NCBI RefSeq assembly: GCF_023716565.1
Contig: NZ_CP071849.1
Coordinates: 310,001-374,000, forward strand
Source: Vibrio sp. SCSIO 43136
GTDB taxonomy: Bacteria > Pseudomonadota > Gammaproteobacteria > Enterobacterales > Vibrionaceae
Reading direction: 5' to 3'
Length of the DNA stretch: 64,000 nt
Both the position numbers and the translations under genes were made by a program. The notes below the pieces were generated by a model, which saw only the letters and a program-made list of their open reading frames with translations, had not been told where the DNA came from and ran no database searches. Positions 7,361 through 62,438 of the stretch are shown here, piece after piece (the first letter of the stretch is position 1; each line of letters opens with the position of its first letter).

Positions 7361-7382
7361 GTTTTAATTTTTAATGAATATA

Positions 7383-7416
7383 GGTCAGTCGGGCTAGTTG
7401 TCGGCTGGCCTTTTTT
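7383..7416 (+). terminator. Rho-independent terminator after dhaKLM
   Basis: A 9-bp stem with two G-U pairs (7383-7391 with 7402-7410) is followed by TTTTTT (7411-7416). It overlaps the 3' end of the convergent small gene at 7394-7582. Confidence 0.8.
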
Positions 7417-7582
7417 GATCCAGTTCATCGAGTTCTCGTAAGAACTCTTCGCCATCTACAAGGTTACCGCTTCTAATATCTTCTTCTGCTTGTTCAAAGC
7501 GAGCTTTTACGAGTCTCATCTTGGCTTCTTCTGAGAGTCCACTTTCCTTATCAGTGTTCGATTCGGGGTTTGATGAGGGCAT
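7394..7582 (-). CDS. Small antitoxin-like protein (orphan), divergent from fic
   Basis: The 62-aa, highly charged protein ends in a helix-rich stretch (KMRLVKARFEQAEEDIRSGN, then LVDGEEFLREL) resembling the C-terminal toxin-binding part of ParD/CopG-type antitoxins. I see no N-terminal ribbon-helix-helix. The ATG at 7582 has a strong AGGAGATAGGT ribosome site, so I prefer it to the longer frame from 7690. No ParE/RelE-like toxin follows; the next gene is the end of dhaM. It is divergent from fic across a long palindrome, so it may be a fic partner or a decayed module. Function is not established. Confidence 0.6.
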   Translation of the reverse strand: MPSSNPESNTDKESGLSEEAKMRLVKARFEQAEEDIRSGNLVDGEEFLRELDELDQKRPADN

Positions 7583-7667
7583 ACCTATCTCCTGTGGTTG
7601 TGCCAATATTGTAGTTGCTAGCCGATATGATGCGAAAGATAGAGCCAATCTAATCACATAATGATTT

Positions 7668-7716
7668 GAATAACCACCTAATCTAATCATAATATGATTA
7701 GATTAGGTGGTTATTC
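7668..7716. promoter_or_regulatory. 49-bp palindrome between antitoxin-like gene and fic, likely operator
   Basis: Two perfect 23-bp arms (7668-7690 and 7694-7716) flank a 3-nt centre, AAT. A related half-strength copy lies at 7648-7667 (AATCTAATCACATAATGATT versus AATCTAATCATAATATGATT at 7680-7699). There is no T-tract, and it sits between divergent starts with TATGAT-like -10 elements inside. A self-regulatory operator is the likely reading. Confidence 0.7.
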
Positions 7717-7733
7717 GCATCATAGGTACCGTT

Positions 7734-8834
7734 ATGTGGGTCTGGCAACAGCAAGAGTGGCCTCACTTTACGTGGGACAAAAACGTTATAGAACCGTTGG
7801 TTAGGGAGACTCGTCTCAACCAGGGCGTGCTATTGGGCAAAATGACCAGTCAGCCCACAGATCAAAAGCAAAGTATGCTTGATACCTTGCTTGCAAACAT
7901 TGTTCACTCTAGTGCAATCGAGGGTGAAAAGCTGAATGCATTTTCCGTTCGCTCCTCGCTTGCGAATAAACTAGGTGTTTGTGAAGAAAGACCTTTCCCA
8001 ACTACAGATCAAACCGATGGCCTTGCAGAAATCATGCTGGATGCCGTTGAGAACTTAGAGTCACCTCTAACCCTAGATCGTATCTTACACTGGCATAAGC
8101 GACTCTTCCCTGAAGGCTACACTATGTTCAACCCTGTGATCGGTGGTCAGCTACGAGGTAATGAACCCATGCAGGTAGTTTCCGGCCGAATTGACCGACC
8201 AACGGTACACTTTGAAGCCCCTAGCCGAGATGTGCTGGATCGTGAGCTTCAAACATTAGTTGAATGGTTTAATGCATCCCAAAGCGATGTATCGCTAGAT
8301 CCGCTATTACGAGCTGCCATCACGCATCTTTGGTTTATCACACTTCACCCGTTAGATGATGGTAATGGGCGGATTACTCGTTTATTAACTGATCTAGCTT
8401 TAGCCCAAGCCGAGCAGCAGTCAGTGCGCTTCTACGCCATGTCAGTTGGGATTCTTGCCAACCGCAAAGCCTATTACGAGATACTAGAACAGACACAGAA
8501 AGGTGGTTTGGATATCACCCAATGGCTTGTATGGTTCTTTAATACCTTGAACGAGACCTTTGCTGAGGTGCTTAAGGAGATCGACCAGACGATCTTTAAA
8601 ACCAATTTCTGGCGTAATGTTGATCAAACCAAATTGGCAGCAGAGCAAGTTAAAGTGCTTAATCGAATGCTTGATGGGGATTTTGAGCAAGGGATTAATG
8701 CTACTCAGTATCACAAGGTTGCTAAGGTCAGTAAGCCGACTGCTACTAGGCACTTGGCTTCGCTGGTTGAGATGGGATGTTTGGTTAAGTCTGGTGGTGG
8801 GCGGAGTACTAGGTACTTGTTAACTAAGGAGTGA
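7734..8834 (+). CDS. Fic family protein (AMPylase) with inhibitory helix and winged-helix tail
   Basis: The 366-aa protein starts MWVWQQQEWPHFTWD, the N-terminal signature of DUF4172-type Fic proteins. The Fic motif is HPLDDGNGRITR with catalytic His205; such proteins transfer AMP from ATP to target proteins. An inhibitory S-x-x-x-E-G motif (Ser59, Glu63, Gly64) makes it a class II Fic that restrains itself. The C-terminal 60 residues look like a winged helix (VSKPTATRHLASLVEMG), so it may bind the upstream palindrome. The ATG at 7734 is preferred over an in-frame GTG at 7707 because the family begins at MW-W-QQ. It lies between the dha operon and the SIR2 gene. Confidence 0.88.
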   Translation: MWVWQQQEWPHFTWDKNVIEPLVRETRLNQGVLLGKMTSQPTDQKQSMLDTLLANIVHSSAIEGEKLNAFSVRSSLANKLGVCEERPFPTTDQTDGLAEIMLDAVENLESPLTLDRILHWHKRLFPEGYTMFNPVIGGQLRGNEPMQVVSGRIDRPTVHFEAPSRDVLDRELQTLVEWFNASQSDVSLDPLLRAAITHLWFITLHPLDDGNGRITRLLTDLALAQAEQQSVRFYAMSVGILANRKAYYEILEQTQKGGLDITQWLVWFFNTLNETFAEVLKEIDQTIFKTNFWRNVDQTKLAAEQVKVLNRMLDGDFEQGINATQYHKVAKVSKPTATRHLASLVEMGCLVKSGGGRSTRYLLTKE

Positions 8835-9005
8835 TTAGCTAATCATGCCTTAACTCGCTGGGCAATTAAAGCCAACCTTCATTTGTATTTTATAAAAGAA
8901 GGTTTCTGTGTGATAAGAGTCTACTAACACGAAACCAGATTCCAAACTTTAGGTGCCTATGTGCATAATGTTGAGATTGCATTTATTTACTAGGTCATAA
9001 TTGGT
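8835..9005. other. fic-SIR2 gene spacer
   Basis: This 171-bp AT-rich gap begins with a 14-bp perfect palindrome over the fic stop codon (8832-8845) and contains a loose inverted repeat (AACCTTC 8874-8880 and GAAGGTT 8898-8904) without a clear T-tract. No strong promoter is recognised, though the SIR2 gene needs one or read-through. Confidence 0.4.
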
Positions 9006-11438
9006 ATGAGTATTTCGTTGGAATCAGTTGTAGACAGTATCGAACCGTCAAAAACAGTACTTTTTTTTGGAGCTGGATCTTCAATTCCCTCAGGAGCCCC
9101 AAGTGTTTCAGGCTTGATTTCTGAGATAGGAAGAAAATTCAATTTAGATACTGACGGATATAGTTTAACTGAGCTATCTAGTTTGGCTGAGGATAAAACT
9201 TCACGTAAGGAACTTATTAGCTTTCTGCGGCCTATGTTTGAGCGGCAGCGTGTTACGGGGGCTATGTTAAACTTGCCTTTATATAAGTGGAAAAATATAT
9301 ACACAACAAATTATGATACATTTATTGAGCAAGCATATTCAAAAAAAGAAATACCATTACCAGTATTAAGTACAAATTACGATTTTGCAGAACAAACCCA
9401 CCCTGAAGTTACAAAGTTATATAAGCTTCATGGGACGATTGATAAGGATATCTCTGATGGTCACCAAAGCAGAATTATCATATCTGAAACTGATTATGAC
9501 CATACAAGTGATTATAGGGATGCATTATGGGATGCTTTTAAGTTCGATATGAGTTCAAGTAGTTTAGTTATAATTGGCTATTCACTTTCTGATTCTCATA
9601 TAAAAGACTTGGTAAATAGAGCTATAAAAATAAATAATCAATCACATTCCCCTGCAACAATATATTTGATTTTATATACAAAAGATGAAAATAGAGCTTC
9701 ACTTTTAGAGAAAAGGGGGGTGAAAGTGGCATTCGGTAGTGTCGATGATTTTTTCTCGCAACTACATAAGTTTAATGAGCCTGAAAAGGTGCTATATACA
9801 AGCTCCGGGAATCCATTCGATAGATATCCACTATTGCAGGCAATAACATATACAGTAAAAGATCAACTTAGAAACACCGATAAAAACGTAAGTGCAATGT
9901 TTCATGGTTGGCCTGCTACATATTCTGACATCAAAGCAGGGCTAACTTTTGAAAGGCCTATATCTCGAAGGATAAAAGATGCTCTTAACTTAACCGATGT
10001 GCTTATGTGTACAATTCTAGGTCCTAGTGGAATGGGGAAGAGCACGTTAGCCAGACAGGTTCTATTGAGCTATCACAATAAAGGGCTACATTGTTGGGAA
10101 CATAAAAGTAGCCATCAATTTCTTCCTCATGAGTGGCGTGGTGTTGCAAGACTTTTGGAAAGTAACAACCAAAAAGGGGTTGTGCTAGTAGATGATGCAC
10201 ATATACATTTGAACGAAATAAACACTTTGGCTGATTTGCTATCAGCTGATGGAAACAATAGTTTAAAAGTAATTTTGACATCTACTAGGAATAAGTGGTA
10301 TCCAAGGATAAAATCCCCTACAGTATTTAATAAAGGTGAAGAGTTTGTTGTTAGAAAACTATGTGAAGTTGAAATTGAAAATTTATTAAATCTTGTCGAG
10401 TCTCATCCGGAACTACAACCTTTAGTTGCTAATACATTTGCTGGTTTTTCTAAGTCTGAACGAAAACGACGGCTTACTGCTAAATGTGAATCAGATACAT
10501 TTGTTTGTTTGAAAAACATATTTGCCTCAGAGCAGTTTGATGACATTGTTCTGAGAGAGTTTGCTGATCTAGAGCCGGAACTAAGGGAAATATATAGGTT
10601 GGTAAGTGCAATGGAAAGCGCAGGAGTGAATGTTCATAGACAACTAGTTATTAGGCTTCTAGGGATTCCAGCACAATCCGTCGCTGCATCTATTTCTAAT
10701 CTAGTTGATATAATACATGAATATACCATTAGTGACAGAGAAGGTATATATGGTTGGAAGGGGCGTCACCCTGTCATTACTGATATTATTTCTAAGTATA
10801 AGATGCAAGATGAAACTGAATACTATCAGCTTTTTGAACGGGTAATAGATAGCATAATACCGACATATGATGTAGAGATTAGAACAATCAAACAGTTATG
10901 CGATTTTGATAGTGGGATAAGCAGATTCCCAGATAAACAAAAAAGAAATAAACTGTTAAGAAAAATGATTTCCAAGGCTCCAGGAGAGAGAATACCTAGA
11001 CATAGACTTATTCGGTATCTAATTGATATTAATGAGCTAGAAAAAGCTGAAACTGAGATAAGATTATATGAAAATGATTTTAAACAAGACTCAGCAATGT
11101 TTAGGTATCAGGCACTTCTACTAATGGCTAGATCTGAACGAACAAAAGGGATATTAGACGAGGATCGAGTTTCAATATTAGAAATGGCTCGAATAAAAGT
11201 AGCTAAAGGTATAGAAAAGTTTAAAAACAACAAACACTTACTTAAGACGTATTGTGATGTTGGCTTAGAGTTATTTAAGCGAACGGGAAATGCAGAGTCC
11301 TTTGATGAAGCTTTAGTTCACCTCAAGTTGGCAGAAGAAAGGTTAGGCGACCCTGAAATTACGACGTCTATAATTGTACTTGAGCAACAATTTTCAAGAA
11401 TTCAATTAGACGCACAAGAAAAAGTTGAAGAGGCTTAG
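9006..11438 (+). CDS. SIR2-like / P-loop NTPase protein, candidate anti-phage defence
   Basis: The 810-aa protein has an N-terminal SIR2-like domain (about 1-250): FFGAGSS near residue 20, TTNYD at 100-104, KLHGTID with likely catalytic His142, and an IIGYSLSD strand. A P-loop NTPase follows, with Walker A GPSGMGKST near 340 and Walker B-like VVLVDDAH near 393. The helical C-terminus (about 600-810) looks like TPR-type repeats. SIR2 effectors on NTPase or repeat sensors deplete NAD+ during phage infection in known systems such as DSR and Avs-type proteins; the role here is inferred. The gene is much more AT-rich than its neighbours and uses many ATA and AGA codons, a sign of transfer. It converges on dhaR with a 22-bp gap. 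Confidence 0.8.
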   Translation: MSISLESVVDSIEPSKTVLFFGAGSSIPSGAPSVSGLISEIGRKFNLDTDGYSLTELSSLAEDKTSRKELISFLRPMFERQRVTGAMLNLPLYKWKNIYTTNYDTFIEQAYSKKEIPLPVLSTNYDFAEQTHPEVTKLYKLHGTIDKDISDGHQSRIIISETDYDHTSDYRDALWDAFKFDMSSSSLVIIGYSLSDSHIKDLVNRAIKINNQSHSPATIYLILYTKDENRASLLEKRGVKVAFGSVDDFFSQLHKFNEPEKVLYTSSGNPFDRYPLLQAITYTVKDQLRNTDKNVSAMFHGWPATYSDIKAGLTFERPISRRIKDALNLTDVLMCTILGPSGMGKSTLARQVLLSYHNKGLHCWEHKSSHQFLPHEWRGVARLLESNNQKGVVLVDDAHIHLNEINTLADLLSADGNNSLKVILTSTRNKWYPRIKSPTVFNKGEEFVVRKLCEVEIENLLNLVESHPELQPLVANTFAGFSKSERKRRLTAKCESDTFVCLKNIFASEQFDDIVLREFADLEPELREIYRLVSAMESAGVNVHRQLVIRLLGIPAQSVAASISNLVDIIHEYTISDREGIYGWKGRHPVITDIISKYKMQDETEYYQLFERVIDSIIPTYDVEIRTIKQLCDFDSGISRFPDKQKRNKLLRKMISKAPGERIPRHRLIRYLIDINELEKAETEIRLYENDFKQDSAMFRYQALLLMARSERTKGILDEDRVSILEMARIKVAKGIEKFKNNKHLLKTYCDVGLELFKRTGNAESFDEALVHLKLAEERLGDPEITTSIIVLEQQFSRIQLDAQEKVEEA

Positions 11439-11460
11439 GTATGTATGGGTGTTGGTTGAT

Positions 11461-13374
11461 CTACCCCTCAACCAACCCATACTTCTTAACCTTCCTCCAA
11501 AGCGTAGTCCGCCCAATTTGTAACACTTTCGCCATTACCTGCATTTTCCCATCATAGCGCTCCCAAGCATCAATGATCGCTCGCTTCTCAATCTCTTCCA
11601 GTGATAGCCCTTCATTCGGGTTAGCGTCTCCATCACTTTGTAGCAGATCACTAGGGATATCCATCAGTTGGATAAGGTTGCTACTACGGTTGAGTAAGAT
11701 TTTCTCCATGCGGTTTTTCAGCTCAGAGTTGTTGCCTTGCCAGCGGTAATTGAGTAAAGCCGCTTTGGCTTCTGTCCCTAGTTCTACCTTGTTTCCGTGG
11801 CGCTTTTGGTAGATGGAGAGTAGCTGCTCAATAATGAGCTCTATATCTTCACTGCGCTGGTAAAGTGGTGAGATTTCAAGTTCATTAGAGGAGATCTCAT
11901 AGTAGAGTTGACGGCTAAAATAATCTTGGGCGACATACTCACGGATGTCTTCGCTAGTGCTGGTGACGAGCTGGAATTTTACCGGGATAAGGCGCTGGCT
12001 ATTGTGGCGGCTAATCAAGCCAGTTTTAAGGTACTTTAGCAATACCGCTTGAAGCTCTTGGCTCAAATATTCGAAGTTTTCAAGATACAGTGTGCCGTCA
12101 TGGGCTAGTTCAAATTTGGATGGCTGACCATTGTCGTCATCGTAGCCCAGCGTATCTCTAAGCATTTGCTCATTATTGAGTGAGCGGCAATTGAGGCTAA
12201 TAAATGGCCCTTGTCGGTATTCACTTTCGCTGTGGATTGCCATGGCTAGGGTGCTTTTTCCCACGCCTTCTTCACCGGTAAGCAAGATTGGGGATTTGGA
12301 TTTTATTGCCCTTTTGGCCATGGTGATGACCCGCTGCATTTTTTGTGAGCGAGCAGGTAGAGATTCGAAAGTGTGTTTGACACTGCTTCCGACCTGCTGC
12401 TGAGCAAGTTTGCGGATCTTATCCAGAGGATGAGTGAAGAGGAGTGAACTACCATCCGCCATGGGTGTATAGGTCACTATTGCTTCGATAAATGCGCTGT
12501 TCACTTCAATGGTGGTTTGAAGACGCTCAATACGCTCTCTTTGCTGGATCTTAACCATCAAGTTAGGTGGAAAGCGGATGATGTTGAATACATCTCTATC
12601 CAATACTTTTTGTGGATTGAGGCCAAGCAGTTGCTGGTTTTGATGACTGGCAATTGTGATGCGGTTGTCTGTATCCCAACCGAGCAAACCATCGTCCATG
12701 TTTTCTAATGTGGTTTGATGTGCGCACATCAAACGGTGCATGTTGTCTTGTTCAGAATCGATGTGGATTTGTAGCGAAACTTCTTTTGCACACGCATCGA
12801 CAACAATAGTGCTTTCAAGGCAGTGATCTTCTGCAGGCCGCACCATGGTGACACAGCCTCGCAAACGACCGAGCGTATCGAAAATTGGGGCAGCGCTAGT
12901 CACATAAGGATGAAGGTGGCGGTTAAAATGTTCAGCAGCTAAGACTTCGCTACTTTGGTGTGTTTCGAGAGCAATGCTGGTGGCATTTGTCCCCATTTTA
13001 CCTTCGGCGATGAAGCAGCCGGTTTTTATGCCGAGCTGCTGTAGCTCTTCTAACAGTTTTGGATGACCAACAGTATGGAGCACACAGCCGTTATCGTCGG
13101 TGACAAACATCATAACTTGTTTGTCGCCAAACTGGTCATAGGTATCTTCGATAACCGTGGTAGCGCAGCCGATGATGCGTTGATTACGCTTCATCAAGGA
13201 GCTAAGGGTATGCCCAGAGGCGATATGAGGTTTCGACCAATGGTAGGCGCTGCAACGCTTACTGCTGCGCTCCCAAGATTCGACCACGGGTGTGTGGGCG
13301 AAATCAGGAGAGACCCAGTGGTGTTTTTGGAAGAAATCCCACTTCTTTTTAGTGTCTTCTATTTGGTCTAGCAT
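11461..13374 (-). CDS. dhaR: Transcriptional activator of the dihydroxyacetone kinase operon, DhaR
   Basis: The 637-aa protein has the DhaR layout: GAF/PAS sensory half (about 1-310), AAA+ domain (about 330-560, Walker A LLTGEEGVGKST) and C-terminal Fis-type helix-turn-helix (AKVLQIGRTTLWRKVKKYGL). The GAFTGA sigma54-contact loop is missing, and the Walker B region reads GTLYLENFEYL. E. coli DhaR shares these changes and works with sigma70 RNA polymerase; DhaL-ADP activates and DhaK inhibits it. The gene is separated from dhaKLM by the fic/SIR2 block. A repeat element follows its start on the upstream side. Confidence 0.9.
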   Translation of the reverse strand: MLDQIEDTKKKWDFFQKHHWVSPDFAHTPVVESWERSSKRCSAYHWSKPHIASGHTLSSLMKRNQRIIGCATTVIEDTYDQFGDKQVMMFVTDDNGCVLHTVGHPKLLEELQQLGIKTGCFIAEGKMGTNATSIALETHQSSEVLAAEHFNRHLHPYVTSAAPIFDTLGRLRGCVTMVRPAEDHCLESTIVVDACAKEVSLQIHIDSEQDNMHRLMCAHQTTLENMDDGLLGWDTDNRITIASHQNQQLLGLNPQKVLDRDVFNIIRFPPNLMVKIQQRERIERLQTTIEVNSAFIEAIVTYTPMADGSSLLFTHPLDKIRKLAQQQVGSSVKHTFESLPARSQKMQRVITMAKRAIKSKSPILLTGEEGVGKSTLAMAIHSESEYRQGPFISLNCRSLNNEQMLRDTLGYDDDNGQPSKFELAHDGTLYLENFEYLSQELQAVLLKYLKTGLISRHNSQRLIPVKFQLVTSTSEDIREYVAQDYFSRQLYYEISSNELEISPLYQRSEDIELIIEQLLSIYQKRHGNKVELGTEAKAALLNYRWQGNNSELKNRMEKILLNRSSNLIQLMDIPSDLLQSDGDANPNEGLSLEEIEKRAIIDAWERYDGKMQVMAKVLQIGRTTLWRKVKKYGLVEG

Positions 13375-31377: not shown

Positions 31378-34148
31378 GAGTGCTCCCATAATTGCGCTTC
31401 ATCGGAAATGGAGTTGATAGGAGCGCAGGTTAAACTTTTGTTTTTTAGCCACTTGGCTTCGAAATCATGAGCTTTCAAGGGTTTATCAAACAAGTAACCT
31501 TGTGCACAACAACAGCCCAAGCTCTTAAGGCTATCTAACTGCCAGCGTTCTTCCACCCCTTCAGCCACCACTTTTAAATCTAGGCTTTTCGCCAGTGTAA
31601 TGATGGTTTTCGCCAATGTTTTTGAGTGGCGACTACTTTCTAGTTCAGAAATGTAACTCCTATCGAGCTTGATAATGTCGAATGGATAGGAGTTTAGATA
31701 GCTGAGTGACGAATACCCAGTACCAAAGTCATCTAGATACAATTCGATGCCGAGATCTTTTAGTTGACCAAGCTGTTCTATGATGTCTTCATTTTTGCCA
31801 AGGTAGATGTTCTCGGTGATTTCTAAGCCTATATGTTTACCTTCTACCCCATGTTTGTCTAACGCTGCTTTGACTTGCTCAACAAGATTGGATGTGAAGA
31901 GTTGGGCGGCTGAAATATTAATCGAGACTCGGTGATGCGGCTCAAGCAGATGAGACCATGTCCCCATTTGCTGGCACACTTGTTCAATCACCCAAGCTCC
32001 AATTTCATTGATCTTACCGCTGTGCTCAGCAATAGGGATAAAGATATTAGGAGGTACACTGCCAATGGTGTGACTTTTCCAGCGGATTAACGCTTCAGCA
32101 CCTGCCAGTCTTTGCTGATCGATACAGTAAATCGGCTGGTAGACTAGGGTGAATTCATTGTTCCCAATGGCTTTATTGAGTGCTGATGAGACCAAGAGCT
32201 GGTAGGTACTCTCTTCGAGCATATCTTCGCTAAACAAAATGTAGCTGCTGCTCCTTGAGTTCTTAGCCTTGGATAAGGCTGAACTTGCCGCCTTTAGTAG
32301 TGTTTCTGAGTTATTGCCGTGCTGGGGGGCGATCGCTACTCCAATAGATACAGATAGCTCTAAGCTGTGGTCCTTTACGCATGCCGGCTGTTGGAATATC
32401 TGAGTAATTTTTTTACATAGCGGAGTGATAGAAGCTGGCGATGAAATGGGTAATACGATCGCAAACTCACCACCTGTTAGGCGGTACAATGCATCCTTAT
32501 CAAACGTTTGACTAAGTTTATCTGCCACTGTTTTAAGTGTTTCATCACCCACTTTTAAACCAAGAGTATCGTTGATCAAACGCAAGTCAGATAGATCGAG
32601 CAAAGCGATCATAAATTTGGCAGAATCCACATCGTTTTGGTTCAGATTATGCTCTATGGCCGCATCAATGGCTTGTCGGTTACCAAGCCCGGTTAGAAGA
32701 TCCATATTGAGCATAGAGATCAGTTTAGACTCATTGGCTTTCTTTTCCGTGATGTCTCTGATAATAGAAAGAATGACCATTTCAGAGTTGAACTTCATGT
32801 ACTTAGTACCAATTTCAACGATCTTGTGTACACCCGAACGAGTGACGAACTCTTTTTCGACGTGTGTTTGGCTAAAATCTATATAGTCACCATCTTTATC
32901 TGAATAAATGTTGGATAAAGAGAGATTGGCAAGCTCATCAGACTTATATTCTAAGAAGTTACAAGCCATATCATTAGCAGCAATGATTCTTTGCGACTCT
33001 ACGCTCGATAGCAATATTGGATCACTCGCATTCTCTAAGAGGTTTATATAATCTCTTTTTTGTCTTCGAATTTTATTTATTAGGCGATAAAAGAGAAACG
33101 TTATAAACAACGTCACCGAAATGATACAAAAAGCGAAGATAATAAATGCGTCGCGAGTTTGATTATAGGCAATATAGGCTTCGTCGTAGTCCAATTCGGT
33201 CGCTAAACCGAACTCATGTATAGGGTCCCATAACCAAGCGCCAACCACCGTAGTCCCCCGATAGTCTACATACCCTTCAATGTTGTAATTGGACTGGCCC
33301 GACAACGCACTTTGCGCCATGACAGTGAGTTCAGGCTTTCCATTGGACACCAGTGTTGGGATCTTGATTTGTGTGGTAAATATGCTCGATTCATTATCCG
33401 CTAAGATTTTACGTTGCTTAAGTTCATCTTCGAAGCGGCTATCTGAGATCATCACACCATGTTCATCAAATAGGTAAGTCTCTCCAGTTCGTCCAATCTG
33501 ACTGCGGTTGAGTATTTTTTGTAGCTTTTCAATCGGATCTAGGCGTAGGGTCAATAGGGCAATGATTTTGCCATCGAAATCTCTGATAGGGCTTGCGACA
33601 AACATGGTCGGGTAGTTTTCAATCAGTTGTCCCTCTTTATTTGGAAGGGGCACATCAGATTTTTGTGGCAGCGTAGTGAGAGTCTCTCCCTGCCACGCCC
33701 GGTCAAGGAACCCTTTTTGGCTAGCAAGCAGATTTATAGTGCCAATATTACTGTTTCTGGTAGATGCGAGGCTGATATTGTTTTTGTCGAGAATAAAAAA
33801 GCCACGCATCTCATGGGTTTGAAGGATTGGAGCAAGCAACTTCCGTAAGCTCGTTTGTGCATCTGAGTTGACTAATGCTTCTTGCGTATTGGGAGTGGAT
33901 AGTAATTCACGAGTCTGGCTGACGATTACTGGATTGCTGGCAAGGATATTGGCATGGTCTTCATTTTCTTGAGCCCATAGGTGGATGGCTTGGTATGTGG
34001 TGCTGCTGACTGCCCGAAGCGATTCGGCGAGGCTATCGGTGAAGCTATTTTTGATCACGCTTAACGTCAATGAGGCAGCAATGAGTGTAATAGCAATTGT
34101 CGCTATCATTGTGCCAAATAGGTATCTAAGTTTGTGTTTGGAGAGCAC
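31374..34148 (-). CDS. Cache-PAS-GGDEF-EAL membrane protein, probable c-di-GMP phosphodiesterase
   Basis: The 924-aa protein has an N-terminal membrane helix (about 10-32), a periplasmic double-Cache sensor (about 40-325), a second helix (IIFAFCIISVTLFITFLFY), PAS (about 360-480), GGDEF (about 490-650) and EAL (about 665-905). The active-site loop reads RLTGGEF instead of RLGGDEF, so cyclase activity is doubtful. EAL residues are intact (AEALIRW, EITEN, DDFGTGYSSL, DIIKLDR), predicting c-di-GMP hydrolysis. The start is GTG with AAGGA six bases upstream. Confidence 0.9.
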   Translation of the reverse strand: MLSKHKLRYLFGTMIATIAITLIAASLTLSVIKNSFTDSLAESLRAVSSTTYQAIHLWAQENEDHANILASNPVIVSQTRELLSTPNTQEALVNSDAQTSLRKLLAPILQTHEMRGFFILDKNNISLASTRNSNIGTINLLASQKGFLDRAWQGETLTTLPQKSDVPLPNKEGQLIENYPTMFVASPIRDFDGKIIALLTLRLDPIEKLQKILNRSQIGRTGETYLFDEHGVMISDSRFEDELKQRKILADNESSIFTTQIKIPTLVSNGKPELTVMAQSALSGQSNYNIEGYVDYRGTTVVGAWLWDPIHEFGLATELDYDEAYIAYNQTRDAFIIFAFCIISVTLFITFLFYRLINKIRRQKRDYINLLENASDPILLSSVESQRIIAANDMACNFLEYKSDELANLSLSNIYSDKDGDYIDFSQTHVEKEFVTRSGVHKIVEIGTKYMKFNSEMVILSIIRDITEKKANESKLISMLNMDLLTGLGNRQAIDAAIEHNLNQNDVDSAKFMIALLDLSDLRLINDTLGLKVGDETLKTVADKLSQTFDKDALYRLTGGEFAIVLPISSPASITPLCKKITQIFQQPACVKDHSLELSVSIGVAIAPQHGNNSETLLKAASSALSKAKNSRSSSYILFSEDMLEESTYQLLVSSALNKAIGNNEFTLVYQPIYCIDQQRLAGAEALIRWKSHTIGSVPPNIFIPIAEHSGKINEIGAWVIEQVCQQMGTWSHLLEPHHRVSINISAAQLFTSNLVEQVKAALDKHGVEGKHIGLEITENIYLGKNEDIIEQLGQLKDLGIELYLDDFGTGYSSLSYLNSYPFDIIKLDRSYISELESSRHSKTLAKTIITLAKSLDLKVVAEGVEERWQLDSLKSLGCCCAQGYLFDKPLKAHDFEAKWLKNKSLTCAPINSISDEAQLWEHS

Positions 34149-34556
34149 GGTAAGTCCTTGGGGAGAGGCTTTGTATATTAATTTTCGCTAATCTAGTTTT
34201 ATTTGTATCAATCAATGGTTTTTATAGAGTAGCGAGGCTATTTCTTGCCTGTCTGTTATTTTAGTCAGCCCAATATGACGTGTTAAATTTTTTCTACTCA
34301 GCGATAGGAGTTTCATTGTAAAGCTTGCGACATAGCAAGTTTTTTTAATAATTAATCCAATTTAATTATAGACAGCGTACCATTATGTTACGTGTTACAG
34401 AATTCTTATAATTCGTGTTCATTTCTATGTTGCATTGGTAGTCATTTACGAGTGTAGTGCAGTAAGGAAAGTACAACTGAAGCTATACGAAAACGTATAT
34501 CAGCTATATTTGCATCAGATGTTGCTAAAGCGCAATAACGTGTCAAGGTTAGATAA
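34149..34556. other. 408-bp AT-rich intergenic region with an orphan terminator
   Basis: No coding frame is supported between the divergent GGDEF/EAL and chemoreceptor genes. CTTGC (34324-34328) pairs with GCAAG (34335-34339), followed by seven T residues: a plus-strand terminator with no gene before it. It could end a small RNA or a leader transcript starting around 34200-34280. I did not find a strong promoter for it. Confidence 0.5.
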
Positions 34557-36140
34557 ATGATAAGAAGTAAATTACGCATAATTAGTGGTGTGTTGTTGAT
34601 CATGGCGTTTGCACTTAGCCTAACCATGATTTTTAAATTGAATGAAGTTTCAAGCGATATGGAAACGTTGGAAAATACGTTTCAACCTATTGAACGCAAG
34701 TATTTGGAGTTACAGTTGAATGTTGGGTCACTTGAGCAATCTTTGCTGGCCTATGCCGTGACTCAAGGTGCCTACGATGGCTTGTCGATTGCTAGCCAGT
34801 ATTACCAGCAATCTAAGAAACTGCTGGGAGAAATTGAAGCCCTAAGTTCATCGCAAGCAGAGCTTGGTCAACTGCTAGACAAACATCATGATTTTGGTTT
34901 AGTGATAGCGGCAGCTTATGTCGAGCAAGGTGTTGACGCTGGTAACCTTATGTTAGGCGATTTTGACGCCTTATCTGTACGTATATTTGAGTTGGTTGAA
35001 ACCAATAGACAGATAGCAGATAAAACTGCGAAAACTCTTGAAGCGAGTGTTGATGAGCGTATGCAATGGTTTAAGCTATTGGTTTACCTATTTGCTTCAG
35101 CATTCATTATTACCATCTTTGGGTTTTATTATTCTCTTAGCCGTTACGTGTTTAGCCCATTACGCAGACTCGGTGAGATGGTAAAAGATCTTGCCAGCGG
35201 AAAAGGTGATCTCACTAAGCGTTTGCGTGCAACCCGCAGTGACGAGTTAGGCATTATTGCTGGGGACATTAATCAGTTTATTGCTAAGACCCAAGAGTTA
35301 CTGCAAGCAGTCAGTCACGCTGGTGACCAGCTAGGTCAAAGTGCTAAAGCGTTAGAAAGTTCGATGACCAGCACGTTGAGCGGTATTACCAAACAGGAAA
35401 GAGAAATCGAAGCGACCAGCCATTCCGCACAACAAGTGGCAGAAGGTTCGATCGAGGTTAGTAAACATACCGTAGATGCTTCTCTACAAACTAACGATAT
35501 TCACGAGAACTCCGAGAGTGTTAGGTTAGATGTGGATGCTTCAGAAAAAAGCATGATTTTGCTGGCGTCAAAAATGGAAGAAGCGCAACAGGTTATCCAT
35601 CGTTTAGGTGAAGACAGCAATAACATCGGTTCAATGCTTGAAGTGATCCGTGGTATCTCCGAGCAAACTAACTTGTTAGCACTCAATGCAGCGATTGAAG
35701 CCGCGAGGGCTGGCGAGCAAGGCAGAGGGTTTGCTGTGGTAGCCGATGAAGTTCGAAGCCTTGCAGGTAACACTAGTGATTCAACAGATAAAATTAACCA
35801 AGTCATCGAGCAGCTTGCCCACAACGTAAGTCACGCAATCGATGTGGTTAAACAATGCAGCGATACTACTTGTGAGTGTTTGCAAACGGTGAACTCGATG
35901 GGCTCATCGATTAAGGGCATCAGTCATGCTGTTGAAGGTTTGAACTCGATGAATACTCAGATAGCAACAGCCTCTGAAGAGCAGTCAGAAGTTTTGAATG
36001 AAATCGACCGAAATATGACGGATATTGCCCAAGTGACCCGAGACAACTCACAATCTGTTTCGCAATTGGGCGATATTGTTGAGCAGCTTCAGCGCAGTAC
36101 AAAAGAGTTGGACTCCCATCTGGCTCAATTCCAGTATTAA
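34557..36140 (+). CDS. Methyl-accepting chemotaxis protein
   Basis: The 527-aa chemoreceptor has a first membrane helix (about 7-28), a helical periplasmic domain (about 30-165), a second helix ([21 protein letters not shown]), a HAMP domain and a long signalling coiled coil. The hairpin tip ([20 protein letters not shown], continuing [12 protein letters not shown]) matches the CheA/CheW-binding consensus. The ligand is unknown. AAGG precedes the ATG. A terminator follows at 36155-36188. Confidence 0.94.
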
Positions 36141-45778: not shown

Positions 45779-46279
45779 CTAAGGCTCCTTGGTCATGACC
45801 TCGATTTCATAGAGTTGCCAAACCATGTAGTCATTAAAAATATGCGCTTTAAGTTCCTCATATTCGTCTATCGGGAACATTATCCAGTAAGGGCCACGTT
45901 TGCGCACCGACATCTCTTTTCCATCCATTTTCCAAGCAACAATCGGCTGATAATCGATGATTTTTGAGTAACTGGCACTGGCTTGGTACTGGTCGAGAGC
46001 CCTAAGCATCAACCAATCCCCTTTAGGCTGTGCCAAAGCCAATACGTCTTTTAGTAGCGGCCCTTGAAAACGAACCATGCCTTGAGTCCATGGTGTATTG
46101 GTGTCAATAACGACTTGATCAAGTCGCTTTATTTGCTCAAGCGAAACTTCAACTTCACTACCTACATTCCCCTTGATAACTAAAGACTTTTTAGCATGAG
46201 CTGTGGCAAATACGCTGTTCAGGCCAAATAGTAGAAAAATAGATAGAGCTAATACTCTAATTAAGCGTTTTGTATTCAT
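45779..46279 (-). CDS. Periplasmic molybdopterin-binding-like (sulfite-oxidase-fold) protein
   Basis: The 166-aa protein has a signal peptide (VLALSIFLLFGLNSVFATAHA) and a domain resembling the oxidoreductase molybdopterin-binding fold (GNVGSEVEVSLEQIKRLDQV, TPWTQGMVRFQGPLLKDVL, IAWKMDG-like segment, GPYWIMFPID). The usual cofactor Cys is not evident, so it may bind a ligand rather than catalyse redox chemistry. It lies directly upstream of the degenerate GGDEF protein and is probably its periplasmic input. Confidence 0.75.
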   Translation of the reverse strand: MNTKRLIRVLALSIFLLFGLNSVFATAHAKKSLVIKGNVGSEVEVSLEQIKRLDQVVIDTNTPWTQGMVRFQGPLLKDVLALAQPKGDWLMLRALDQYQASASYSKIIDYQPIVAWKMDGKEMSVRKRGPYWIMFPIDEYEELKAHIFNDYMVWQLYEIEVMTKEP

Positions 46280-46523
46280 TTTCCACCTATGTTACTTCGA
46301 ATAGATAGCTATACAGATAGCGAACTCGCAAGCCAGTGCATTTTTTAGAGTATAGATAGCGATTTGAGCTTTGCCATAAAGTAATCAAGCAGTTATTGAC
46401 AAAATAGTGACTATATTCAATGTCAAATAATTGTCAGATGTGGTGCTGACATTTGGTGTGATCTTGTTCAATGTAATACTTTTATGTACGATTTCGAACT
46501 AAAGTCAATTATAGCTCGAATTT

Positions 46524-47963
46524 ATGAATTCCCTACGAAACTCTACCTATACAAACTATCGCGAACCTTTGTCGTTAAACGCCAAGGGAGTAGATTGGCA
46601 GGGGGCGTTATTTAGCCTAGTTAGCGTTGCGCTGATCTTGTTTAGCTTTAATGTGTTTCGTGGCCAAATAAATACTTTTGTGCTTTTTGACAGCAAGCGC
46701 ATCTTTGTATGTGCATTTATTTGTTTGACAAGCATGCTGGTCATTTTCAACCGTACTATCAGAAGTCAATGCATCCACAATTTGACGCGTTTGAACCGAG
46801 TCACGACACTCGCTCTGCTGACTTTGTGTGTTTGCATGCTGGTCGCTAATTCTTTAAGTGAACAGATTGTCGCAGGTTACTTGCAGCATTTTTATTTATT
46901 GGGACTGTTATTCGTCAGCTGCGCTTTAGGGGGCTGGTTAGCTAACAATAAATTGCGCCTATTTCGCTTGTTGGCGCTGGTTAATATCCTACTGTTTTTC
47001 AGTGTTGCTACCATGATGTGGCTGGCCGTGATGTTCGATAAGCCGATCACCATTTTTACTCAGCTCAGCTTTGCCAACCCTAGGTTTTTGAATCATTTAC
47101 AAGCGTGGGTTGCGATCCCTGTGGGTTATTTTGCTGTGGTTGCAATAAGGCGTCAGCGTAGTGTTTTTGTTACACGGCTTGCCTTGGTTATTCTGTTTGC
47201 GACGGCTTTTGCTACCGATGCCAGAGGTGCACTGTTATCTATAGTATGCGGCTTCTTCATTATGGCAATAGCTGACAAAGCCAATCGAAAGTTGTGGTTT
47301 CAACTATTGTGGCAGTGCGCAGTTGTTGGATATGCGTTTAAATACTGTTTGATCGATCCGTTACCTAAGCTGTTATTGAGTTCCAGCTCAGACTTCCTTC
47401 CTCAAGTAAGAACGACATCTTCTTCGCGAATCACCAATTGGCTTGAGATCTTGCACAACACGCGTTGGTACGGTTGGGGCTCTGACCAGTACGCATGTGA
47501 TGGCGGGCAATTTGCAGGAACACACAACTCTTTTTTAACCGTGCTCTACCAATGGGGTGTCGTAGCATTGCTAGCCTATCTCGCTTTAATCGGAGTCTTA
47601 GTAAAAGCCTTATTCTCCACTCCACATCGGGTAACGCGTGTGCTGGCGGGGGCTTTGGTAACGGCGGTTATCTATAGCTTTTTTACTGGACTGATGATCA
47701 CCCCTCTTAGCCAGATGATTGGTGCATTGGTGTTAGGCACATTTTGGTCTTTGCGCATACAGGGTAAGACCAAAGTGAACATGGGCTCCATTTCACCAAA
47801 AAAGAATGCGTTGATAGTGGCATTGATGATCGGAGTGATTGGCGCTGTGAGTTATCGAGTTGCACTGCGTATCGAAAATTACCCGATGGTTGAGCCTGAC
47901 TATAGTCATCGACCTCAGTTTTGGGTGGGTTACAACTGCCTAACTCAACCTCAACAGCCGTAA
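46524..47963 (+). CDS. O-antigen ligase/polymerase-like (Wzy_C) membrane protein, possible pilin O-oligosaccharyltransferase
   Basis: The 479-aa protein has about 10-12 membrane helices and the Wzy_C-type periplasmic loop (RITNWLEILHNTRWYGWGSD, then GTHNSFLTVLYQWG), where family members carry the catalytic His. WaaL, Wzy and the PglL/TfpO O-oligosaccharyltransferases share this region. It ends 9 bp before tadE and appears to head the tadE-tadF-tadG transcript, with no lipopolysaccharide genes adjacent. Glycosylation of Tad pilin or pseudopilins is therefore a reasonable but untested guess. Confidence 0.8.
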   Translation: MNSLRNSTYTNYREPLSLNAKGVDWQGALFSLVSVALILFSFNVFRGQINTFVLFDSKRIFVCAFICLTSMLVIFNRTIRSQCIHNLTRLNRVTTLALLTLCVCMLVANSLSEQIVAGYLQHFYLLGLLFVSCALGGWLANNKLRLFRLLALVNILLFFSVATMMWLAVMFDKPITIFTQLSFANPRFLNHLQAWVAIPVGYFAVVAIRRQRSVFVTRLALVILFATAFATDARGALLSIVCGFFIMAIADKANRKLWFQLLWQCAVVGYAFKYCLIDPLPKLLLSSSSDFLPQVRTTSSSRITNWLEILHNTRWYGWGSDQYACDGGQFAGTHNSFLTVLYQWGVVALLAYLALIGVLVKALFSTPHRVTRVLAGALVTAVIYSFFTGLMITPLSQMIGALVLGTFWSLRIQGKTKVNMGSISPKKNALIVALMIGVIGAVSYRVALRIENYPMVEPDYSHRPQFWVGYNCLTQPQQP

Positions 47964-47972
47964 AGGTCAGTT

Positions 47973-48575
47973 ATGAAATATCTATTGAAGAAAAAGCAAA
48001 CCGGGGTGTTTGCCATCGAATTTGCGCTTGGGTTTCTGGTGTTGTTTATGTTCACCATGCTGATTTTTGAAACCTGCCGACTTACTTACATCTGCGCAGT
48101 GCTTGACTATACCACCGCCGAAGCAGCCCGAGATGCAAGGGTTCAGCTTGATAGCAATCCTGATTTCGATTTGTATAAGTCCGATCTTTTTGTGTGTGAA
48201 GACCACGATCTGTCACCTACTGATTTAAAGCAGTGCCAGATGATCAAATCATTCAAAGGTGATGAGTATCAGGTTTGGTTTTATAGTTTTCTGTTGAACA
48301 ACGGTGGCAAACTTTGGGAAGTGATGACTGCAAAAAATGACTTTGCAGTAACAGCAAAACACTACAAGACACTCACTGATTTAGAGCGAGACCGTCCAAC
48401 GAACTCAAGGGCTGCCAAAGATCGTAAGAATTGGCAGGATAACGGTTTTTCATTGTTTGAAGTGAATTACACCTACCAACCAATATTTTTTAAAGCTAAG
48501 TGGTCATCTGTATTGATAAAACGAAGCGTTCTGATCATTGATGAGTTCGAGAGGCACACCCATGCAAATAAATAA
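47973..48575 (+). CDS. tadE: TadE-like minor pilin
   Basis: The 200-aa protein has a type IV-like prepilin N-terminus with a short basic leader (KYLLKKKQTG), then FAIEFALGFLVLFMFTMLIF with the Glu at position +5-like and a long hydrophobic helix. The C-terminal part is soluble and contains Cys pairs. TadE is a pseudopilin processed by TadV. AAGG precedes the ATG; the tadF start overlaps its end by 14 bp. Confidence 0.88.
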   Translation: MKYLLKKKQTGVFAIEFALGFLVLFMFTMLIFETCRLTYICAVLDYTTAEAARDARVQLDSNPDFDLYKSDLFVCEDHDLSPTDLKQCQMIKSFKGDEYQVWFYSFLLNNGGKLWEVMTAKNDFAVTAKHYKTLTDLERDRPTNSRAAKDRKNWQDNGFSLFEVNYTYQPIFFKAKWSSVLIKRSVLIIDEFERHTHANK

Positions 48576-49080
48576 GAACCGTGGGGTTTTCTCAATTGAA
48601 ATGGCATTTGTTCTGATTGGCATGTCAGCCTGTTTATATTTCTGTTTTGATTTGGGTTATCAACAGATTAGAAAAAGCCAGCTTGAAAGAGTTTCTTATT
48701 CCTTGGTCAGTGTATTAAAAGAAAGAACTCTGTTCTATCAGCAGAAACAACCTGTTGATGGCAAGCAAGTTGCTCAACTGCATAAAATCGCTGCCAGATT
48801 ACTTAATACTTCTCCAGAACGTGTAGCCATCAACGTAGATTACCGTATCGGAAAAACACAGCGTATTAACCAAAGCCAACGTCATGGGTTTACGTGTGAA
48901 TCTCAAGGTAAATTGAATCAAAAATTCGATGTAGCGTTAGAGAAAACAGGGGAGTTTGCACCTGTGTATCAAGTGACCGTTTGTCAAAAGATACCTGCAT
49001 GGTTTGAAAGAGTCATTGGTAAAGACATTGATAACGATGAACGAGTGATTAAAGCTCAGTCAACTTTCATGGGGCGCTAA
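48562..49080 (+). CDS. tadF: TadF-like minor pilin
   Basis: The 172-aa protein has a pseudopilin-like N-terminus (MQINKNRGVFSIEMAFVLIG) with a hydrophobic helix and a soluble C-terminal domain. The ATG at 48562 has GAGAGG upstream and gives a compact basic leader. It lies between tadE and tadG. Confidence 0.85.
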   Translation: MQINKNRGVFSIEMAFVLIGMSACLYFCFDLGYQQIRKSQLERVSYSLVSVLKERTLFYQQKQPVDGKQVAQLHKIAARLLNTSPERVAINVDYRIGKTQRINQSQRHGFTCESQGKLNQKFDVALEKTGEFAPVYQVTVCQKIPAWFERVIGKDIDNDERVIKAQSTFMGR

Positions 49081-49083
49081 TTT

Positions 49084-50724
49084 ATGAAGTTTGTATCGAA
49101 GCAACAGGGCGCTGCGGCGATTTGGTTTATTTTCTTGATTGGAGCCATTATGTCGCTCGGCGCCTTAGCTATTGAAGGTTCAAGGTACATTGGCAAAAAA
49201 GCAAGACTAGGTGATGCGCTTGAAGCGGCGGCGATTGCTGTGGGTTCTAATGACCGTGTTATGCAAGATTTCAAAGCCAATGTTGCACCGAGTGGTGTTA
49301 AATACAGCGCAAATCAAGTCGCAAAAACATGGATTCATCATTACATCAATGATGAAGTTGATATCGATCTTAGAAGTATTAAACGTAAAGACGTATCGAA
49401 GTTGATTGGCAAAAACTACCTAGTGACACCATATAAGCTGGAATATTTCCGTTACGATATTGATGCCGTTACTAAGCACAACTCTTGGTTCAATTTTTCG
49501 AGTTGGGCTAGTTTTGACAGTCAAGTTAAGGTGGCTAACAAAGGTGTTTCAGGAAGAATCAAAGGGGGACACGAGCCGGCCGACGTAGTTTTTGTAGCCG
49601 ACTTTTCTGGGTCGATGAATGGCCGTTCTAAAGGAAAAGTGAAAATAAAAGCACTGCAAGAAGCAATTAGATATGTAAGTGAAACACTTTATGGAGTCAA
49701 CGATAATTCTACCTTTGGCTTCATTCCTTTCTCAAAGCGAATTGTTATTAAACGAGATGATAGCTATTACTGCGCCTCTCCTCTTTTAGCAAAAAAAGGG
49801 AGTGACGCAGAAACTATCCGAAACCTACCTAGGTTTAGTGAGTTAATGCGTGGGAAAAAGAATAGTGATACTTGGAGCAACACTTCCCGTAAAGAAATCT
49901 ACAAGTCTTATAAGTTTAACCACCGCCAAGAAGGAATGGCAGAATACTATGTTAATTGGTTAAAAGGGCGATCTGGTCATTATGCTAATAGCGAATGGAG
50001 TGAAGAGTGGTGGAAGTACATGAATGTACTAAGAGCCGACTATCCGGTTTCTTACATGAGCTATGACTATATTTATGGAAAGGATGACTGGGGTTGGGAT
50101 AAGAGCGTTCGAGTCGATTTTGATGACCATGTCGATATAAAAAGAAGCGCTAGAGAAATCACGATTAAAGATAAGCCAATGTTTGGCTTGCCAATGCCTT
50201 ATGGTGGAAAATTCTCTGATGGCAAGCCCAAGTTCGGGACTTATTGTACAGGGTGGAGTAGCAAGAATAAGGCTCCTAAATTCTACAATATTGAGCGAAA
50301 AACTTATTCGGACAAAAATGATTTAGAAAATAGCTTATTGAAACCTGTAGACAAAATGTCAGCAGGTGGTGGTACAGATATGTACCAAGGACTATTAGCA
50401 GCCCCACACCAGTTTTATGGGGCGAAACAAAAGAATCGATATATTATTGTCTTGTCTGATGGTGCTGAAAATGTAGACACTTTCCAAAGACTGGTAAATG
50501 CAGGTATGTGTGACGAAATTCGACATAAACTAACACACCCTGCTTATGGAGCAGACTATAACTTTAAGATGTTTGTTGTTGGTATTGGATTTAACCCAAG
50601 TAACAAAGCCTATAATAAATGTTTCGGGCGTGAAAATATTCACCCTGTGTATGATATGGATAAGCTAAAAGACAGGATACTTAGTCTGATCACTGATGAT
50701 ATAGGCCATAACTTCAACCGTTAG
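49084..50724 (+). CDS. tadG: TadG-like protein with von Willebrand A domain
   Basis: The 546-aa protein has a TadE/G-type N-terminal helix (QQGAAAIWFIFLIGAIMSLGA), a long middle region and a von Willebrand factor A domain with the metal site DFSGSMNG (about residue 178), GGGTDMYQG and VLSDGAENVD. Such proteins may act as pilus-tip or surface adhesins. It ends the tadEFG transcript; a weak hairpin follows at 50740-50759. Confidence 0.87.
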   Translation: MKFVSKQQGAAAIWFIFLIGAIMSLGALAIEGSRYIGKKARLGDALEAAAIAVGSNDRVMQDFKANVAPSGVKYSANQVAKTWIHHYINDEVDIDLRSIKRKDVSKLIGKNYLVTPYKLEYFRYDIDAVTKHNSWFNFSSWASFDSQVKVANKGVSGRIKGGHEPADVVFVADFSGSMNGRSKGKVKIKALQEAIRYVSETLYGVNDNSTFGFIPFSKRIVIKRDDSYYCASPLLAKKGSDAETIRNLPRFSELMRGKKNSDTWSNTSRKEIYKSYKFNHRQEGMAEYYVNWLKGRSGHYANSEWSEEWWKYMNVLRADYPVSYMSYDYIYGKDDWGWDKSVRVDFDDHVDIKRSAREITIKDKPMFGLPMPYGGKFSDGKPKFGTYCTGWSSKNKAPKFYNIERKTYSDKNDLENSLLKPVDKMSAGGGTDMYQGLLAAPHQFYGAKQKNRYIIVLSDGAENVDTFQRLVNAGMCDEIRHKLTHPAYGADYNFKMFVVGIGFNPSNKAYNKCFGRENIHPVYDMDKLKDRILSLITDDIGHNFNR

Positions 50725-51065
50725 CCTTAGATTGCCAAGCGCCCGCTACTGAGTGGGCGTCTTCGATCTTACAGGCTATGTTTCTCATTAAACCTTGGCT
50801 ATTCGCTAAGGGTCTGTATTCATTTCGATAAAACCGAGCTCTTTCTAACTATCAGTTTTATAAGGACTAAAGTCTAGAGTTAAACATCTAACGTCTTGAT
50901 TTTGTTAACAGTGTCAGAACTTTGTCAGGACTGTAAAATTGACGCCTTTCAAGGTTGTCATACGATATCGAATCTATACAATGGCACCCAACGTAAACGA
51001 CGCAACAAATGATTTGTCCTTTTCACTTTTTGCGTTGCTAATCCACTCGAGATAAGAGAAAAAAC
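50725..51065. promoter_or_regulatory. tadG-flp intergenic region with flp promoter
   Basis: No gene is supported in this 341-bp gap. A short hairpin (CGCCC 50740-50744, GGGCG 50755-50759) may end the tadEFG transcript. A likely sigma70 promoter lies at TTGACG (50939-50944), 16-bp spacer, TACGAT (50961-50966), giving a leader of about 95 nt before flp. AAGAGA precedes the flp ATG. Confidence 0.6.
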
Positions 51066-61923: not shown

Positions 61924-62438
61924 ATAACCTCTGCTTAATTGCCGGGCTTTCCTCTCTAATATTTTGTCGAGAACAGTAAACCATTCTCAATTATAGGCGC
62001 TTCCTTTCGCAGGCAATGGTAAAAGACAAGCGCAAGAGGTTACTGATTGATAGCGGTTGCTTTGTTAGAGCAATGTCAGGGAAGTGGTTGATGTTTAATC
62101 ATTTGAGCCGAATAGTAAAATAAAAGATCAGGTAAAACATAAGGTTATTCTTGAGCAGTCGGTTGCGTAACTTGGGGTGCTTTTTGGGCTAAATTAATTT
62201 TCCTAAGTGGGACAAACTGTTACAGATGTAACTATTTTAAAAACTAATTTATCAATCTTGTGATCATCCATGAGTGTTTTCTGATATTTGTAAATGGTCA
62301 GATTGACTTTTGACCAGTATAGACAACACTAAAATTAAGGTTTCTAAAGATACCAAGCTAATAAGAAAGAGAGAATTCTTCGCATTTAGGTTGAGCTGGC
62401 TAAACATTTTTGGACGACAAAATTTTTAAGGACGCTTT
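61924..62438. other. 515-bp gltS / chemoreceptor divergent intergenic region
   Basis: No gene is supported on either strand. It is AT-rich and presumably holds both promoters; I could not identify a confident -35/-10 pair or a sigma28 site. AAGGA at 62428-62432 is the ribosome site of the chemoreceptor. Confidence 0.4.

Follow-up and report, generated by a model that had tools for sequence, protein, structure and literature searches.

An ORF of 810 codons in Vibrio sp. SCSIO 43136 raises the question whether a single gene serves here as a complete anti-phage system and, if so, to which family of defense proteins it belongs. The ORF runs uninterrupted from an ATG, with no internal stop, in a stretch of 64,000 nucleotides (contig NZ_CP071849.1, positions 310,001 to 374,000), which was analyzed as a whole and is called the window below. 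The original prediction, made from the window alone, had described an effector-switch-sensor protein and a candidate one-gene defense system, and had left it without assignment to a named system. We find the layout to be as described, with an N-terminal SIR2 domain and a STAND-type P-loop NTPase identified by Pfam and a C terminus that is helical in an AlphaFold2 model (Table 1). Full-length homologues exist at 38-47% identity, and the ORF is thus not a chance one. The SIR2-STAND layout, a core of the Avs5 type and relatives in mobile DNA together support a single-gene defense candidate. Judging from sequence comparison, it is likely that the gene encodes an anti-phage immune receptor of the abortive-infection type, which is Avs5-like and belongs to a lineage of its own; it is probably a real, functional defense gene of a known kind.

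Table 1. Features of the SIR2-STAND gene and its surroundings (window coordinates)
Feature	Position	Strand	Basis
Stretch between dhaM and dhaR, 4.1 kb	7361..11460	.	gap of 78-118 bp in three relatives
DUF4172-Fic gene, neighbor, judged not part of the system	7707..8834	+	Pfam, homologue loci, composition
SIR2-nSTAND-helical gene, 810 aa, single gene	9006..11438	+	ORF, Pfam, full-length homologues
SIR2-like domain, residues 1-256 (Pfam match 97-241)	9006..9773	+	Pfam; PDB matches KomC, ThsA, DSR2, EfAvs5
GAGSS motif, residues 22-26, counterpart of Avs5 GAGxS	9069..9083	+	alignments; motif from passages of PMC12931631
TTNYD motif, residues 100-104	9303..9317	+	N102 and D104 in 18/18 SIR2-STAND rows
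HG motif, H142-G143	9429..9434	+	alignment; H in 5/5 group-B and 3/3 group-C rows
nSTAND NTPase core, residues 299-432	9900..10301	+	PF25199 1.5e-14, PF20720 7.8e-8
Walker A GPSGMGKS, residues 339-346	10020..10043	+	sequence; K345 in 18/18 rows
Walker B VVLVDD, residues 392-397	10179..10196	+	alignments
Conserved region behind NTPase core, residues 451-600	10356..10805	+	alignments
C-terminal helical domain, residues 601-810, putative sensor	10806..11435	+	AlphaFold2
Strong hairpin in the gap to convergent dhaR, reaching over the dhaR 3' end	11443..11482	.	fold z -5.0 (+), -3.1 (-)

Domain architecture and catalytic motifs

We aligned 18 SIR2-STAND proteins, which fall into four groups. Group B contains the window protein and four other full-length members (L008, L087, L098 and L099), group C contains L010, L013 and L014, and group D contains L023, L045 and L046. 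The seven members of group A include L090, and four of its rows, from Vibrio, are cut by locus ends. The Pfam family SIR2_2 (PF13289) matches the window protein far above its cut-off (98.9 bits against 24.5, E 3.5e-28). The histidine of the HG motif is replaced by asparagine in all ten rows of groups A and D, giving an NG motif. H142 had been singled out in the original prediction as a residue to mutate, and it is indeed the histidine of the SIR2 HG motif, aligned with that of KomC; an asparagine occupies the same column in the deposited KomC variant H146N. All five group-B rows carry N102, D104, H142, G339, G344, K345 and D396. A second, weaker SIR2_2 match is found elsewhere in the same genome, in a 383-residue frame (G000:C1:1227238-1227492, 23.5 bits against the cut-off of 24.5).

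Some of the closest SIR2 chains in the PDB bear the molecule name 'deacetylase', as would suit a protein deacylase or regulator with an NTPase and no immune NADase activity. These chains carry the name KomC NADase as well, however, and the other close ones belong to ThsA, DSR2 and EfAvs5. Given in addition the fusion to a STAND module and the mobile context, we regard a deacylase or regulator as very improbable indeed, and an immune effector remains our preferred reading of the domain.

The NTPase core is matched by two nSTAND families (on nSTAND naming, see passages of PMC8195603). Of these, nSTAND_NTPase5 (PF25199) outscores nSTAND3 (PF20720) in each of the three group-B proteins scanned, namely the window protein, L008 and L087. 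nSTAND3 exceeds its cut-off of 27.2 bits in the window protein (32.6 bits) and falls below it in L008 (22.6 bits) and L087 (21.2 bits). The Walker residues are present as G339, G344, K345 and S346 in motif A and D396 and D397 in motif B. The arginine finger R438 of PaAvs5-1 may correspond to R428 (three of five group-B rows) or R434 (all five) in a part of the alignment that is uncertain. The conserved region that follows is perhaps the winged-helix or arm part of the STAND module. It contains an Arg-His pair, R587-H588, in 11/11 rows of groups B, C and D, which is Lys-Ser in 7/7 rows of group A. A single-sequence search of PDB sequences with residues 261-810 alone returned no relevant match. 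The broad Avs5 architecture is present: PF13289, PF20720 in the window protein, a predicted helical C terminus, the SIR2 motifs GAGxS, TTNxD and HG-or-NG seen in the alignments, and Walker A and B.

Relationship to Avs5 and other SIR2 defense proteins

Profile searches against the SIR2 defense families had been proposed as a check. In them the NCBIfam cut-offs for DSR and Avs5 were all missed, and the core matches Avs5-type (AVAST type 5) proteins. DSR1 and DSR2 share with the window protein an N-terminal SIR2 domain in a one-gene defense protein, but their models reach 15.4 and 19.4 bits against a cut-off of 1400, and the DSR-type relatives L007 and L042 have no NTPase match in the parts scanned. 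The SIR2 domain is also common to Thoeris ThsA (PADLOC ThsA, 4.5e-25), yet Pfam finds no STALD domain (PF18185) in the window protein, which the ThsA-like control L002 contains (9e-72). KomC of KomBC matches with an E-value of 9.3e-14 and with its HG histidine aligned, but it is a chain of 264 residues and the match is limited to the SIR2 part. The NCBIfam Avs5 model NF041814 reaches 23.5 bits where 1000 are required, over model positions 115-217 in the SIR2 part only; at E<=0.01 the four other group-B members match it (best 2.4e-6) and the window protein does not. As none of 274 genomes contains a match above this cut-off, our comparison set holds no EcAvs5-type sequence. The strong PADLOC matches to the window protein all lie in its SIR2 part. 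PADLOC also returned SIR2-only matches and no Avs5-named model for L090, a near-copy of EfAvs5, and we therefore discarded its silence as evidence.

The E. coli plasmid protein L090 matches PDB entry 9jap ('Helical structure of EfAvs5(SIR2-STAND)', chain A) along its whole length with 1846 bits and ties group A to EfAvs5. The top PDB sequence matches cover the SIR2 part only (ThsA-type, KomC). EfAvs5, tenth of 38 matches with the group-B profile, is the sole sequence match that spans both SIR2 and NTPase domains (E 5.3e-11 over residues 66-524; with profile A1, E 4.1e-18 over residues 12-536). The AVAST5 filament entries 9nah and 9nc9 turned up solely as PDB matches. In a Foldseek search with the AlphaFold2 model, 9jap ranks first of 61 matches at E<=0.001, with an E-value of 1.3e-14, followed by DSR2 at 4.6e-7; TM-scores of the model to 9jap are low (0.24).

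The tree of the 18 proteins separates group A from groups B, C and D with support of 100/100, a split that is unchanged when only three group-B rows are used. Group B forms one clade (100/100), and the union of groups C and D is weaker (83/90). In a tree of SIR2 domains alone, with ThsA, DSR and other SIR2 rows added, the deep forks are weak, so that this domain by itself does not settle the placement. HHalign comparison of the SIR2 domains gives 99.6% for group B (three rows) against C, 98.8% against A and 97.5% against D; the corresponding values for the NTPase region (five rows) are 99.0%, 97.3% and 97.8%, with reversed decoys at 0.07-0.26%. By these comparisons, the SIR2 and NTPase domains of group B and of the Avs5-type proteins are of common descent. 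The earlier view that the protein cannot be assigned to a named system is therefore superseded: trees, HHalign and Foldseek place its core with that of the Avs5-type SIR2-STAND proteins.

Each of the other groups resembles the window protein in part. EfAvs5 has the same SIR2-STAND-helical order and a homologous core, but L090 is only 21% identical over residues 12-581 and group A carries NG instead of HG. Group D is PaAvs5-1-like, an assignment that we infer from motifs given in passages of PMC12931631 and not from a named PaAvs5 sequence. Its members, about 830 residues long, have NG, Glu at the E202 position and a Walker B of the acid-Arg form; L045 also has Tyr, Trp and Gln spaced by 14 and 2 as in Tyr661, Trp675 and Gln677, while L023 and L046 keep the hinge Gln and not the Trp. 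Group D shares with the window protein the SIR2-STAND core, the Arg-His pair and the same side of the split from group A. Group B differs from it in having HG, a D-D/E Walker B and Asp at the E202 position, and the window protein is 20% identical to L045 (like the comparison with L090, over about 600 columns). Group C, a further SIR2-STAND group, gives the highest profile matches to group B and shares its HG active site, but its proteins are longer (903-1049 residues). It comprises L010 from a plasmid of V. pectenicida (L010:5818-8961), L013, which ends in a cold-shock-like domain, and L014. Genomes of the same genus also carry EfAvs5-like genes (L027, L032, L034 and L035) and one gene that is PaAvs5-1-like by its motifs (L023).

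The C-terminal domain and the limits of Avs5

A first AlphaFold2 model, built from two sequences with a pLDDT of 43, was set aside. The model used here, from four sequences, is mediocre (mean pLDDT 62.4, pTM 0.39): it is fairly confident for residues ~311-430 and 641-800 and poor for much of the SIR2 domain (22-171) and for 495-601. Residues 603-809 are almost wholly helical in it, with block means of 71-91 across 641-800. The only TPR match that Pfam reports in this part is non-significant (TPR_19, E 0.17). HHalign finds no kinship between the C termini of group B and those of group A (0.25%) or D (0.14%), in contrast to D against A (85.9%). The signal is similarly poor for group C, at 15.5% against B (decoy 2.2%), 14.7% against D and 0.26% against A. 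Since these profiles hold three to seven rows each, a missed match is no proof, and the C termini may be distantly related. Compared domain by domain, groups A to D thus have an engine in common, and the sensor of group B is without detectable kinship to those of the Avs5-type groups.

Passages of PMC12931631 place a conserved Tyr661 and Trp675 and an invariant Gln677 at the start of the Avs5 repeat domain. This hinge glutamine is present in every row of groups A, C and D (13/13), and its column holds Arg in the three group-B rows compared. No invariant Gln or Trp is found past residue 600 across the five group-B rows. The C termini of the groups align poorly, however, and the Trp of the motif is also absent from group C, as it is from L023 and L046. 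As the hinge glutamine is absent and the NF041814 cut-off is missed, we file group B as an Avs5-like SIR2-STAND lineage and not as Avs5 proper. The earlier suggestion that it could be a new subtype is supported, and we found no description of the lineage in the open-access papers searched.

Group B could also be nothing other than Avs5 as broadly published, one of the four clades in a tree of 335 Avs5 sequences and new only in its host. According to the parts of PMC12931631 concerned with Avs5 diversity, three PaAvs5 homologues from different clades are 18-21% identical, close to the identities of the window protein to L045 and L090, and have unlike C-terminal repeats, and HG occurs about as often as NG. 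A family of this breadth would admit group B, and PF13289 and PF20720 both exceed their cut-offs in the window protein. The missed NCBIfam cut-off, the missing hinge glutamine, the C terminus without detectable homology and the sub-threshold nSTAND3 matches of L008 and L087 speak against it. We consider this a serious possibility, somewhat short of an even one; it is a question of filing and is compatible with the mechanism proposed below. A bolder reading makes group B a separate AVAST type, which would combine the Avs5 engine with an unrelated helical sensor and hinge of its own, travel on prophages and plasmids, and recognize a feature of phages to which none of the known Avs proteins responds. 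This we put forward tentatively, as a rather doubtful proposal. A shared engine with a sensor of no detectable kinship lends itself naturally to testing if sensors are exchangeable.

Proposed mechanism

Avs5-type SIR2-STAND receptors illustrate phage-protein sensing that is answered by loss of NAD+. As described in passages of PMC12931631, Avs5 is a Sir2-nSTAND3-repeat protein that requires its C-terminal domain for activation and also depends on its ATPase motifs. Its Sir2 domain hydrolyzes NAD+ once a phage protein has been sensed, and defense is lost without the catalytic Asn, the Walker A residues or the C-terminal helices. The same passages report a structural likeness to human SAMD9, and filament formation is an apparent prerequisite of Avs5 activity (passages of PMC12700824). 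Because the core of the window protein is homologous to that of Avs5, the same chain of events, each step of which we infer, provides the best account of the gene. By analogy with characterized Avs5 proteins, the resting protein would be closed, and a phage product would bind to the C-terminal helical domain. The STAND NTPase modules would then oligomerize, as EfAvs5 does in its solved filament, and the SIR2 heads would hydrolyze NAD+ and stop phage growth. The gene is a candidate defense against marine (Vibrio) phages.

Distribution and genomic context of group B

Group B is rare. In samples that overlap with one another, and with two or three first-look candidates scored per genome in the genus, class and phylum scans, a long match of the group-B type was found in its own genome only when 61 relatives, 227 genus members and 369 genomes from the class were scanned. 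The phylum sample of 398 genomes added one such genome (G948), which was also the only one with a long match among 249 genomes of its order. The remaining matches in the genus, class and phylum scans are either confined to the SIR2 domain or come from members of groups A, C and D, and the C-terminal profile detected its own genome only among 319. A scan of viral sequences with that profile (A4) yielded two loci, both with full-length ORFs; profile A5 recovered the same two and four more in which the match is confined to the SIR2 part, and neither profile A1 nor the group-C protein L010 gave a match. No match was obtained by tblastn against 50,697 phage records (E<=1e-5), by megablast against E. 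coli genomes, or with L023 against plasmids.

The full-length relatives are 47% (L008 and L098), 43-44% (L087, in G948) and 38% (L099) identical to the window protein. Further copies, at 46-52% identity, occur on the Pseudomonas savastanoi conjugative plasmid NC_007274 and on NZ_CP041755. The loci L098 and L099 are viral (prophage-like) contigs with full-length ORFs. In L098 the gene is flanked by a CI-like repressor gene and a ParB-like gene, and in L099 a tail-type gene and a pair of integrase-like genes lie downstream. The NC_007274 copy adjoins a tyrosine recombinase gene and a toxin-antitoxin pair, the copy in G948 is located ~4.6 kb from a DUF3987 gene, and that in L008 has a ResIII-DUF3427-PLD helicase gene ~2 kb away and, further out, a gene for a methyltransferase; the L008 contig is filed as a Saccharibacteria MAG and may be mis-binned. 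Judged by gene content, these neighborhoods are the genomic company of defense genes. The relatives on viral contigs, together with the clean insertion site described below, make the mobility of the gene easy to trace.

Such company would also be expected if the same machine were aimed mainly at plasmids and other mobile elements, or were a weapon of prophages against rival prophages: group-B genes occur on a conjugative plasmid (as a broken copy), on viral contigs and near the DUF3987 gene of G948. Short Argonaute systems with SIR2 effectors have an anti-plasmid role, and PADLOC Aga_SIR2 models match the SIR2 domain of the window protein. The targets of characterized Avs5 proteins are phages, however (passages of PMC12931631), and we consider a main role against plasmids or rival prophages unlikely. 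A receptor directed at phages remains the preferred interpretation. It is very unlikely, on the other hand, that the window gene is a decaying passenger with no current role. Such genes do decay, as the copy on NC_007274 is broken and spread over three annotated ORFs (L009:9751-12175) and a match in genome G647 of the phylum sample covers residues 1-111 only, with a stop inside. The reading frame in the window is full length, however, and its motif columns agree with those of the other group-B rows except where these vary among themselves.

Insertion site and neighboring genes

The gene has a foreign composition, with a GC content of 0.357 and a GC3 of 0.26 against a GC content of 0.45 for the window, which confirms that it is AT-rich. 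GC3 is 0.435 in dhaM and 0.457 in the Fic gene, whose composition is host-like. A search with dhaR found matches in 10 other genomes of 60, and we compared five of these regions. All three relatives with convergent dhaM and dhaR (L083, L084 and L085) have an empty site, in which the gap contains no ORF of at least 100 residues; the other two (L086 and L088) have a different gene order and no bearing on this question. In the window, the gap contains a small ORF, the DUF4172-Fic gene and the SIR2 gene. The SIR2 gene has thus apparently been inserted into the Vibrio chromosome between dhaM and dhaR, and composition and empty sites together bear out the transferred look noted in the original prediction.

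The adjacent Fic module had been noted as well, and the gene is indeed there, with DUF4172 and Fic domains. It does not look functionally linked to the SIR2 gene. Of the 22 genomes searched, eight from the same genus carry a strong Fic homologue, which is split or broken in two. We compared six of these loci (78-82% identity): all lie elsewhere in their genomes, and no relative of the SIR2 gene is found near them within the 11-13 kb inspected at each. On account of these loci and its host-like composition, we take the Fic gene to be separate cargo.

Further elements flank the two genes. The hairpin between the SIR2 gene and dhaR is a possible two-way terminator and is absent from the list returned by a terminator scan. 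The small ORF (7394-7690, minus strand, 98 residues) is divergent from the Fic gene and has no Pfam match at E<=0.001. Between it and the Fic start lies an inverted repeat of 31 nucleotides at 7661-7723 (94% complementary, RNA fold z -10.5), possibly an operator; seven Fic loci from relatives lack its 12-base core words. Further dips in GC content, to 0.39-0.41, occur in the window at 34001-35000, 46001-47000, 48001-51000 and 62001-63000.
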